DNA of 64,000 nucleotides, from assembly GCF_000271665.2 (NCBI RefSeq), contig NZ_CP010978.1, positions 1,892,501 to 1,956,500 on the forward strand, written 5' to 3'. A program made the translations under genes and the position numbers. The notes under the pieces were generated by a model. The model saw only the letters and a list, made by a program, of their open reading frames with translations, was not told where the DNA came from and made no database searches. Positions 11,176-15,820 of this stretch are shown piece after piece (position 1 is the stretch's first letter; each line of letters opens with the position of its first letter). Source of the stretch: Pelosinus fermentans JBW45. GTDB taxonomy: Bacteria > Bacillota > Negativicutes > DSM-13327.

Positions 11176-11655
11176 TCAGGATTGTGTATTATACATACCT
11201 TTGCTTTGCATGTATTGGAAGATCCCTTGACCATGTCCTTGTTCTTCTTTTTGTATGTGGTTAAGAGCTTGACGTGCATTAGGATCAGCAAATTCGAAGA
11301 TCGCCGTATCATAGGCTCCGGAGACAAATTTTTCAGTCATTAGCATATCCGTACAGAGAGTACTGTCACTTTGACTTGCAATAGCTCCCTGAGAGGATGA
11401 TGAAGTTGTAGTTGAGTTGCTTTGCCCGGATTGCTGGTTTTGCTGTGAAGTCATATTGGGAATTTGACCGTTTAGCATTTGGTTGACAGTATTTAGGTGC
11501 TGCTGCTCTTGTCCAGCGTAGGAGTTAAACAACTGCTTTAGAGCTGGATCTTGGGCTTGATTAGCATAAGACTGGTACTTCTCTATACAGATCTGCTCAT
11601 GCTTTTTTTGATCTTCCAATAAAGATTTTTCTTTTGGGGTTAATTGTAGCGTCAT
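11176..11655 (-). CDS. CotF-like spore coat / ferritin-like protein
   Basis: A 159-residue protein with the coat-F pattern. An N-terminal helical part (LTPKEKSLLEDQKKHEQICI...EQQHLNTVNQML, residues ~5-60) is followed by a Gln/Ser/Thr-rich linker (~65-95) and a second helical part (LCTDMLMTEKFVSGAYDTAI...QKEEQGHGQGIFQYMQSKGMY). Glu/His pairs in both parts (KHEQ, EQQH; EKF, EEQGHG) recall ferritin-like di-metal sites. The ATG at 11655 follows AGGAGGTGA; the three codons upstream overlap that site. It suggests the organism makes endospores. The exact coat layer is unknown. Confidence 0.85.
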   Translation of the reverse strand: MTLQLTPKEKSLLEDQKKHEQICIEKYQSYANQAQDPALKQLFNSYAGQEQQHLNTVNQMLNGQIPNMTSQQNQQSGQSNSTTTSSSSQGAIASQSDSTLCTDMLMTEKFVSGAYDTAIFEFADPNARQALNHIQKEEQGHGQGIFQYMQSKGMYNTQS

Positions 11656-11744
11656 ATATATCACCTCCTGCTACTATTTTGTTTCATAACTTGAATTTTA
11701 TTCATGATTGTAAAAGGAGGTTAGTTATATCTTATAATTTTTAT

Positions 11745-14033: not shown

Positions 14034-14061
14034 AAAGGCACCGGAAGTATCCGGTGCCTTT
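14034..14061. terminator. Terminator after the CWP-repeat gene
   Basis: A perfect 12-bp stem AAAGGCACCGGA (14034-14045), tetraloop, TCCGGTGCCTTT (14050-14061). It ends the minus-strand radical SAM / repeat-peptide operon. Confidence 0.9.
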
Positions 14062-14114: not shown

Positions 14115-14422
14115 TTAATCGCGACGAGGCCAGCACTGTTGACGAGGCCAGCACTGTTGACGGGGCCAGCACTGTTGACGGGGCCAGCATTGTTGACGAG
14201 GCCAGCATTGCTGACGAGGCCAGCATTGCTGACGAGGCCAGCACTGTTGTTGACGGGCCAGCACTGTTGTTGACGGGGCCAGCAAGAAGATGACGGACCG
14301 CACCCTACAATAACGACTCGTTCATCATCGTCATCGTCATCCCAGTCAGTCATTTCTGGTCGATCCCACTTAGGTCTTTGTTCGCTATTATCATAATAAT
14401 CATCATCATCGTCATAATACAT
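14115..14422 (-). CDS. Cys-Trp-Pro repeat peptide (candidate radical-SAM substrate), with one-base frameshift
   Basis: AAGGAGG precedes ATG 14422. The N-terminal ~46 residues are Asp/Tyr-rich (MYYDDDDDYYDNSEQ...DWDDDDDDERVVIVGCGPSS). Then come tandem CWPRQQ(Q) units. A single G seems missing in the GGG at 14255-14257; restoring it gives a 102-residue protein with nine CWP motifs (Cys ~47, 54, 61, 67, 73, 79, 85, 91, 97) ending PRRD and a stop at 14115. As sequenced, the frame instead runs to 14081 as an Asn/Ser/Ala/Gly/Val repeat. Differences among repeat units are third-position changes only in the CWPRQQ frame, which supports that frame. It lies 45 bp downstream of a radical SAM/SPASM gene. 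The function is unknown; a RiPP-like precursor or a modified coat peptide are possibilities. Confidence 0.6.
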
Positions 14423-14467
14423 ATTTTTATCCTCCTTTTTAGTCTAACGATACTCGCTATATCGAGG

Positions 14468-15700
14468 TTACCACTCACCTGTATAAGGATTATAGGAACA
14501 GGCAGCAGGAGGGGCCAGCCATGACTTATTGGAATCGTTGCCTTGGGCTAACGGGCGACAATCCGTGCAAGCATAGCGATATTCACAGTCCTTACATTTT
14601 TGGATTTGATTTTTGGTCGTATGCCAGCATTGTTGTAGTGGGTGATCCGTAAGTACATCAGCTAATGAATGCGTAAGAATATTGCCGCATACTTGATTTC
14701 TTGCAAAGATGCAAGGTATGACATCACCTGTGGAGGTAATCGCAAGTTTTCCTGCTAGGCATTGGCAGTAAGTCTGAGAAGCCGTAAAAGAAGCTTCGTC
14801 AGTGTAAAAGGGCGGTTTAATAGGCGGCTTGGTAAAAGTAGTTGGAAGTAAATGTTGATCATCTCCTCTGCCGGTGGGGCGAATCACATCGGGATACGCA
14901 TCGGGCATGCCCAATTCTTCATAAAGCTTAAGAATATTGGGTACTTCGTGTTCGTTGGCTTTCATAATAATAGAAGCAATGCGTAAAGGAATCTTAGCTT
15001 CTAATACTTTCTTGATGGCAGTCATGGTTTTCGTAAAGCTATTAGGATGCAAGGTTACGCTGTCATGGACGGAGGCGTTATTAGCATAAATGGTTGTAGC
15101 GATATTTACATTATATTGTTTAAAGAAATCGATACAGCTATCATCAACTAATGTACCGTTTGTAAAGATTTCGATATATTCATAGCCGATTTCATGAGCC
15201 TTGATGACTAGGTCACGCCACTTAGGGTACAGTAATGGCTCACCGCCAATAAATTGAATATCAGTAGCTCCTGCTGCTTTTGCCTCTTCTATAAGGGAGA
15301 GCCAGCGGTGATGAGGTACGAGATCCAATTCCTTGCGTGAAGGGCCACTTTCTGAGTAACAGTGTAGACACTTGCTGTTGCAGGCTGCTGTTAGTTCTAA
15401 CCACAGAAACTCAAGTTTTGCAGGGCAGTCTGGTAAGGAGCGCTCTGGAATAGAAGCAGAAGATGTTTCATGAAAAAATCCTAAATCTTTTTGTTCTAGC
15501 TTATTTAAGAAATTCATGTATTGCGTGCTTTCAGTAGATGACATATCCCAAAGATCCTCCAAGGCGTTGCTTTGGCAGGCGCTGAGTAGCCCAGCTGCAC
15601 TTTGGTTAATGGAATGAACCTTTCCTGTTTTAAAGTCGTAGATTGCACCACGAGCAGCACCTTTCACTAATTTGCAGTGTTTTTGTAAGTTATAATACAA
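14468..15700 (-). CDS. Radical SAM/SPASM peptide-modifying enzyme
   Basis: A 410-residue protein. Residues ~9-60 (LVKGAARGAIYDFKTGKVHSIN) resemble the PqqD-like peptide-recognition region found in RiPP maturases. The radical SAM cluster motif is CNSKCLHC (Cys107, 111, 114), with GGEPLLYP (~170) for SAM binding. The C-terminal SPASM region has many cysteines (YCQCLAGK, IPCIFARNQVCGN, CKDCEYRYACTDC, ACSY) for auxiliary Fe-S clusters. It starts at TTG 15700, with AAAGGAGG 8 nt upstream. It sits directly upstream of the Cys-Trp-Pro repeat gene, so that peptide is the likely substrate. SPASM enzymes commonly make thioether or C-C crosslinks; which one is made here is unknown. Confidence 0.85.
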   Translation of the reverse strand: MYYNLQKHCKLVKGAARGAIYDFKTGKVHSINQSAAGLLSACQSNALEDLWDMSSTESTQYMNFLNKLEQKDLGFFHETSSASIPERSLPDCPAKLEFLWLELTAACNSKCLHCYSESGPSRKELDLVPHHRWLSLIEEAKAAGATDIQFIGGEPLLYPKWRDLVIKAHEIGYEYIEIFTNGTLVDDSCIDFFKQYNVNIATTIYANNASVHDSVTLHPNSFTKTMTAIKKVLEAKIPLRIASIIMKANEHEVPNILKLYEELGMPDAYPDVIRPTGRGDDQHLLPTTFTKPPIKPPFYTDEASFTASQTYCQCLAGKLAITSTGDVIPCIFARNQVCGNILTHSLADVLTDHPLQQCWHTTKNQIQKCKDCEYRYACTDCRPLAQGNDSNKSWLAPPAACSYNPYTGEW

Positions 15701-15791
15701 CAGATCAGCCTCCTTTTATGGTGGATTTATTACATAATATGCAAAAAACGGTATCTTGGTGTGTGCCATCTTTCAAAAAAACAATCGGATG

Positions 15792-15820
15792 TTGACAAAA
15801 AATAAAATTGCATATATAAT
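15792..15820 (+). promoter_or_regulatory. Consensus promoter of tRNA-Gly
   Basis: TTGACA (15792-15797), 17 bp, TATAAT (15815-15820), 35 bp before the tRNA. Confidence 0.85.

Follow-up and report, generated by a model that had tools for sequence, protein, structure and literature searches.

A SPASM radical-SAM enzyme and dispersed Cys-x-Pro repeat peptides: a probable RiPP-type maturation system of endospore-forming Negativicutes

What does a SPASM-domain radical S-adenosylmethionine (radical-SAM) enzyme make beside a small gene of cysteine–tryptophan–proline (CWP) repeats, and where in the life of its host would the product serve? The question is raised by a locus of Pelosinus fermentans JBW45, lying in a 64,000-nucleotide stretch of contig NZ_CP010978.1 (positions 1,892,501 to 1,956,500, forward strand; hereafter the window), in which an initial annotation had seen an enzyme paired with a repeat peptide whose product might remain in the cell or spore. 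As judged by comparison of genome sequences, two gene families, their co-occurrence, a common promoter-like motif and a link with spoIVA point to an answer: the pair probably belongs to a maturation system for ribosomally synthesised and post-translationally modified peptides (RiPPs) in endospore-forming Negativicutes, acting on Cys-x-Pro (CxP) repeats and probably forming thioether cross-links from cysteine.

Matches to the enzyme at E ≤ 1e-40 were found in 52 of 380 Negativicutes genomes, of which 50 hold orthologues and two (G261 and G320) carry only a paralogue of 33–34% identity. The surroundings were read at 49 orthologue loci from 48 genomes, G005 giving two copies, and G010 and G314 being excluded since their contigs stop at the gene or inside it. 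An adjacent precursor, defined as an open reading frame (ORF) with three or more CxP starting no more than 300 nt from the enzyme end, is present at 35 of the 49 loci, the broken gene of the window counted. The lack of a repeat gene beside orthologues, which the initial annotation had named as telling against its proposal, was found at the other 14. Five of these have a precursor further off: a CxP ORF lies directly upstream of the enzyme at L017, L025 and L055 and 4.2–4.5 kb before the enzyme end at L033, and two lie 1.9–2.5 kb downstream at L019 (read in L044). At the remaining nine (L013, L014, L022, L023, L028, L029, L053, L057 and L061) no ORF with at least three CxP occurs in the stretch read.

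The two gene families also co-occur across whole genomes. A precursor profile (A2), built from 15 precursors with 12 genomes supplying rows and searched through the class at E ≤ 1e-4, matches 49 of the 380 genomes: 47 of the 50 with the enzyme and two of the 330 others, G007 and G320 (Fisher p 6e-54, a statistic that ignores kinship). Dropping the 12 source genomes leaves precursors in 35 of 38 enzyme genomes against two of 330, and in the smaller set of 60 relatives A2 matches 28, the window's own genome included. Adjacency and genome-wide co-occurrence together bear out the proposed radical-SAM/repeat-peptide pair. A precursor genetically linked to its modifying enzyme, in a conserved pair, is one mark of a RiPP system, and it is very probable that the maturase takes the CxP precursors as its substrates.

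The same genomes are, with few departures, those of spore formers. The presence of spoIVA, scored with TIGR02836 over the 380 genomes, was detected in 52: 47 carry SpoIVA and the enzyme, three the enzyme only, five SpoIVA only and 325 neither. SpoIVA accordingly accompanies 47 of 50 enzymes and occurs in five of the 330 other genomes (Fisher p 1.4e-50, again without regard to kinship); the corresponding counts in the 60-genome set are 27, 2, 4 and 27. The enzyme and its precursors thus appear almost only in spore formers of one class, and a role of the system in sporulation is highly likely. The Coat F (CotF) domain gene that lies second downstream of the window's precursor points the same way.

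A second tie with sporulation is a promoter-like sequence. The consensus for sigma-K is AC-N17-CATAnnnTA, and a motif of this kind, CA[CT]-N14-19-CATAnnATG, stands within 150 nt upstream of the enzyme at 39 of 49 loci (its -10 core at 41), compared with a mean of 0.11 and a maximum of one in 100 rounds of shuffling. It recurs at 18 of 27 orphan precursors, in a scan reaching from 150 nt before the ORF to 60 nt into it, with the core in 19 against a shuffle mean of 0.79. Among 980 random 150-mers from the loci, 11 contain the loose pattern and 27 the -10 core, above the shuffles, possibly because real sites were resampled. In the window's genome the exact form CACC-N16-CATATTATGTA has seven sites, placed ahead of the enzyme, of five precursors and of the decayed precursor described below, and a longer promoter pattern has four sites, each at a precursor, and none for the control. 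The motif is best described as sigma-K-like, and may instead be read by a specific regulator. As a control for sigma-K promoters dpaA (TIGR02853) was sought; none of 21 genomes gave a match over the cut-off, and the search responded in 14 of 14 control genomes. Together with the SpoIVA counts, the motif supports the earlier suggestion that the product stays in the cell or spore.

In addition to the local precursor, the window's genome has seven open orphan precursors (L132–L138), two recovered by a leader DNA pattern, four by the promoter pattern and one by the profile. One orphan, L134 (3229–3522), has a histidine run, HHHHHHH, between CWP units. A decayed precursor (L133/L084, around 2469179 of its own genome) keeps a promoter-like site and a DFDRNWKDRPG remnant and has no Cys-x-Pro core; ORFs near it look, by eye, like reverse transcriptases. 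Precursors share leaders with W[DE]xPE[IM] and acidic residues, and the W and P of the W..PE motif, N-terminal to the CxP core, are invariant in a 15-row alignment. The loose W..PE form is present in all 63 ORFs collected for the family, which were chosen for having it together with at least three CxP; the window's broken gene is counted twice among them (L001 and L080).

The cores of these 63 ORFs are diverse in sequence (CWPRQQ, CFPRQT, CSPRQCNPNRW, CNPSCRPN) and uniform in one respect: 773 of the 784 cysteines in the cores are part of a C-x-P unit. Eighteen residues occur at x, led by Phe (175), Trp (110), Tyr (105), Asn (102), Arg (85) and Ser (79), and Arg occupies position +3 in 389 units; the most frequent spacings from unit to unit are 5, 6, 4 and 7 residues. 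Single-nucleotide codon changes between neighbouring units are synonymous in 759 cases and non-synonymous in 158, for units picked as starting with C-x-P, so that two positions were fixed by this choice. These differences, with the A2 matches in 28 of 60 relatives, speak against a chance pattern. Nothing in the repeat unit is fixed except Cys and Pro, which suggests that Pro either joins the reaction or sets a turn, with a backbone or variable acceptor as in alpha-carbon thioethers. Searches of NCBIfam with three intact precursors gave no match, and of Pfam with six none over the cut-off and one sub-threshold match.

The enzyme has the make-up of a sactipeptide or ranthipeptide maturase. Radical_SAM and SPASM domains both exceed their Pfam cut-offs, and 44 of the 49 loci read share the TTG start. 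Across an alignment of 29 rows, the CxxxCxxC cysteines (C107, C111 and C114) and seven SPASM cysteines (C314, C330, C369, C372, C378, C381 and C401) are all invariant, giving the ten radical-SAM and auxiliary-cluster cysteines expected of that class. The initial annotation had called the N-terminal region PqqD-like. PqqD and RiPP recognition element (RRE) domains consist of four strands and three helices, and in the AlphaFold2 model (mean predicted local distance difference test, pLDDT, 87.8) four strands and three helices precede the barrel, in keeping with that call; on the sequence side, PF05402 (PqqD) scores 13.4–17.2 bits in four of four orthologues tested, all below the 23.4 cut-off, and in the window's own protein a wnt model, at 13.4 bits and also below cut-off, has a slightly better E-value than PF05402. 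The region may be described as PqqD/RRE-like, with weak sequence support. SkfB is the top Protein Data Bank (PDB) entry by profile (96.2 bits) and by Foldseek, whose best matches to the model are SkfB, SuiB and CteB.

For leader binding, chemistry, timing and the place of the system in the spore, we infer the following course. The enzyme and precursors would be co-expressed late in sporulation, in the mother cell, from sigma-K-like promoters. The acidic leader, with its KW[DE]xPE[IM]xxW motif, would be held by the SPASM enzyme, probably via the PqqD-like N-terminal domain, while the radical-SAM centre would work along the core one C-x-P unit at a time, most likely joining the sulphur of every Cys to a carbon of some residue close by in a thioether cross-link. 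In most loci a precursor lies beside the enzyme; the scattered ones would be served in trans, and the peptides would most likely end as a tough, cysteine-rich part of the outer layers of the spore. We judge the chances of thioether chemistry to be about even, and lean somewhat further towards the spore-layer location of the peptides.

Several observations weigh against this picture. SpoIVA occurs without the enzyme in G007, G014, G032, G048 and G320, and the enzyme without SpoIVA in G004, G043 and G305, which are drafts of 65, 83 and 93% completeness. G014, G032 and G048 lack enzyme and precursors alike, the two halves of the system being missing jointly; in G007 and G320, which are drafts of 85 and 87% completeness, precursors occur and no orthologue was found. 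Spore formation and the CxP system may both simply follow shared ancestry. A2 finds no precursor in the enzyme genomes G025, G027 and G305, although two CWP-repeat ORFs are visible near the G027 enzyme. The full promoter motif is missing from 10 of 49 enzyme and nine of 27 orphan upstreams, and from the region upstream of the window's own CotF gene (by eye), and its -10 departs from the sigma-K consensus by one base, the last. With one mismatch allowed, AC-N16-CATATTATGTA has 24 sites in the window's genome against 19 for a reversed control, so the pattern as such is not enriched, and the exact form CACC-N16-CATATTATGTA was chosen only after that search. The Foldseek fits to SkfB, SuiB and CteB reach TM-scores of only 0.5–0.6 with root-mean-square deviations of 8–15 Å, and the local precursor of the window is itself frame-broken.

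Pairing of such enzymes with CxP peptides extends well beyond the class. A scan of genome contigs retained 79 loci from the best 80 of 110 matches, to which the following counts refer. Among them are 49 distant loci (L182–L230) of 26–40% identity, a few of them Negativicutes paralogues, the others from Clostridia, Patescibacteria, a Woesearchaeon, Bacteroidetes, a Deltaproteobacterium, Treponema, a Synergistaceae metagenome-assembled genome and others. A small ORF with four or more CxP within 1.5 kb accompanies 31 of the 37 relatives whose match starts in the N-terminal domain and three of the 12 whose match starts after it; two of the latter three, L213 and L225, seem genuine and the third, L216, seems spurious, and L205 and L212 each have a CxP ORF that the overlap rule of the count removed. 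The leaders vary: Selenomonadales paralogues go with a GG type, the Woesearchaeon and Deltaproteobacterium with a twin-arginine-like one, and several Clostridia with an ECLT type. At L188 the Woesearchaeon has several CxP precursors upstream of the enzyme with RRDFLRKAGTAVVVGL-type leaders, possibly for twin-arginine translocation, and the deltaproteobacterial CxP peptide at L182 (+1275..+1799), with a twin-arginine-like N-terminus, ends in a stretch that we take to resemble a peptidoglycan-binding domain. The sole row from outside the Negativicutes in the orthologue clade (60-row tree, midpoint root, 100/100 support) is L180 of Ruminiclostridium sufflavum, at 59% identity, which may reflect transfer or contamination alike; L180 carries a CxP precursor of its own, and no CATAnnATG was seen by eye upstream of its enzyme or precursor. 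A fuller reading, in which a single mother-cell enzyme cross-links dispersed CxP peptides into a thioether-hardened spore layer, as a branch of a broader, undescribed CxP family in several bacterial phyla and an archaeon, is put forward tentatively, at somewhat less than even chances.

Could the product be a secreted RiPP, a bacteriocin or signal that spore formers merely retain, rather than a component of the spore? The nearest PDB relative, SkfB, makes a killing factor, and three Selenomonadales paralogues (L034, L050 and L069) adjoin clusters of CxP peptides with GG leaders, a type that is usually exported; in core sequence (GCQPSWSPCEP) these peptides are similar to the spore-linked precursors. 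The leaders of the latter, however, lack the LDKVSGG motif of the Selenomonadales paralogues (by eye), neither of the two window neighbours scanned, an amino-acid permease and a CotF-domain protein, is a peptide exporter, and eight precursors with variable repeats are dispersed round one genome, many with the enzyme's sigma-K-like motif. A secreted product is unlikely on this evidence.

A different chemistry, quite unlikely in our judgement, would have the enzyme oxidise the CxP cysteine to formylglycine, after the manner of anaerobic sulfatase-maturating enzymes at C-x-P-x-R, and yield a polyaldehyde peptide that links to spore-coat amines. The sulfatase motif is built around C-x-P, and the substrate cysteine of the sulfatase-maturating enzyme anSMEcpe sits in that context; Cys and Pro are, moreover, the sole fixed residues of the unit here, and anSMEcpe, a SPASM enzyme likewise, is among the nearest solved structures (profile 2.9e-14; Foldseek ranks 10, 11, 13 and 14). 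Against this, the Asp that follows the second SPASM cysteine of anSMEcpe (C276-D277), which we take to be the catalytic base, stands opposite Ile of the window enzyme in a HMMER alignment, a position that is Ile in 27 and Val in two of the 29 rows, and the repeats listed have no fixed Arg at +4 (at +3 Arg stands in 389 units only). The window enzyme, whose probable substrate is a peptide repeat, is accordingly not assigned to the sulfatase-maturating enzymes, and formylglycine formation is retained as a rival to thioether cross-linking.

A further alternative, in which the CxP peptides go unmodified and serve as Cys-rich proteins of the spore, joined by disulphides or binding metal, and the enzyme acts on some other target of the regulon, is highly unlikely. 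Cys-rich coat proteins exist, and at nine of the 49 loci the stretch read holds no CxP gene, but the presence of precursors in 47 of 50 enzyme genomes, against two of 330 others, and the recurrence of the pairing in distant relatives with unrelated leaders argue against this alternative. The least likely alternative, cross-links from Cys to Trp or another aromatic residue inside each CWP unit, would suit the 390 of 773 units with Phe, Trp or Tyr at x and the CWP- or CFP-rich precursors of the window's genome, but the other units have Asn, Arg, Ser and further residues there, as in the CNPSCRPN repeats of L018, and with only Cys and Pro fixed and 17 residues besides Trp occurring at x, the Cys–Trp link offered by the initial annotation cannot be the general chemistry.

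The system stands near, and outside, several known ones. SkfB and CteB, maturases of sactipeptides and ranthipeptides, act on leader-plus-core peptides with Cys donors. They share the SPASM architecture with the window enzyme and differ in the low identity of the Foldseek matches (14–20%) and in what is found here: C-x-P repeats without a fixed acceptor, many scattered precursors and a sporulation link. Against every one of the 25 top-scoring NCBIfam models listed, of 68, the window enzyme falls short of the cut-off. The best of these, TIGR04193 of the grasp-with-spasm system, whose best stretch is C-terminal, gives 117.5 bits against a 175-bit cut-off, and no ATP-grasp domain was found in the two neighbours scanned, so membership was rejected. 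Membership of the CXXX-repeat system was rejected as well: TIGR04115 (rSAM_Cxxx_rpt) has Cys-repeat targets by name, and some precursors here have period-4 CxPx repeats, but the five proteins that this model matches in the window's genome, all below the cut-off, do not include the window enzyme, and Pro is fixed in the window's precursor family. In the TvgB/TvgA poly-cyclopropylglycine system one SPASM-family enzyme likewise acts repeatedly along a repeated core; the points of difference are a TVGG core, modification of Val, and a cluster with an oxidase and peptidase/transporters (PMC9062424).

The features of the locus are collected in the table below.

Table. Positions of the maturase, its precursor and associated features, in window coordinates
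Feature	Position	Strand	Remarks
SPASM radical-SAM maturase ORF	14468..15700	(-)	TTG start, 410 residues; Pfam domains and 29-row alignment
Radical-SAM motif CNSKCLHC, residues 107-114	15359..15382	(-)	cysteines invariant in 29/29 alignment rows
SPASM cysteines C314 to C401	14498..14761	(-)	invariant in alignment; PF13186 34.6 bits against a cut-off of 21.5
N-terminal domain of residues 1-80, PqqD/RRE-like in its modelled fold	15461..15700	(-)	AlphaFold2 pLDDT block means 81-96
Sigma-K-like promoter CACC-N16-CATATTATGTA	15731..15761	(-)	upstream of enzyme; looser form recurs in orthologues
Precursor start (ATG at 14422) and leader MYYDDDDD..KWDRPEMTDW.. to first CWP unit	14285..14422	(-)	motif common to other precursors
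Nine CWP units, last CWPRRD	14115..14284	(-)	units 1-2 out of frame with units 3-9
Unit 2, of 20 rather than 21 nt, breaking the frame by 1 nt	14244..14263	(-)	in frame in 4/4 sister loci compared
Possible terminator hairpin GGCACCGGA-loop-TCCGGTGCC, then TTTT	14037..14058	(-)	direct inspection of sequence
Coat F (CotF) domain gene	11176-11664		second gene downstream of precursor, beyond amino-acid permease; domain scan

The local precursor had been taken for a small gene of nine repeat units. Its distance of 45 bp from the enzyme stop, its Asp/Tyr-rich first part, with an acidic leader (KWDRPEM.DW), and the nine CWP units can all be read in the DNA; a single translated frame cannot. The repeat units are 21, 20 and then 18 nt long, unit 2 having GGCCC, one C fewer, where unit 1 has GGCCCC. 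The leader frame translates to MYYDDDDDYYDNSEQRPKWDRPEMTDWDDDDDDERVVIVGCGPSSSCWPRQQQCWP, with two CWP units, and then exits the repeat, and the last seven units, through CWPRRD, are open only in a different frame; with a unit 2 of 20 nt the two do not join. In four sister loci (L002–L005) all unit lengths are multiples of three and the ORF is single and uninterrupted. An enzyme–precursor unit with the precursor as one open gene was rejected for the window, the break in unit 2 being either an assembly error or a real mutation. This break had escaped the initial annotation, which, confined to the window, had no view of the other precursors. Bounding of the unit by a terminator, likewise proposed, has in its favour the hairpin of the table, with a 9-bp stem, a 4-base loop and TTTT after it on the minus strand, which was found by inspection; a scan for sigma-70 promoters and terminators returned nothing for the enzyme–precursor unit, this hairpin included. 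On the plus strand, divergent from the enzyme, a perfect TTGACA-17-TATAAT (15792–15820) stands before a tRNA-like gene at about 15857 (tRNA by eye).

Radical-SAM RiPPs are known mostly as antibiotics, signals or cofactors. A SPASM enzyme with a precursor is of a known kind; what is new is the CxP-repeat class, the dispersed set of precursors and the connection with spores. The titles and abstract openings of the open-access literature found, including PMC9062424, PMC8939145 and PMC10352776, mention no CxP-repeat RiPP family and no counterpart in Negativicutes spores. The co-occurrence of the enzyme with the CxP family in spore formers, and the promoter-like sequence common to both, point to an undescribed tailoring of peptides for the spore. 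What emerges is an apparent tie, running through a bacterial class, between a RiPP-type radical-SAM enzyme and the making of endospores. The window's genome offers some eight candidate substrates, mostly in trans. If this picture is true, it would mean a new chemistry in the armour of the spore and a large family of repeat peptides for enzymology.

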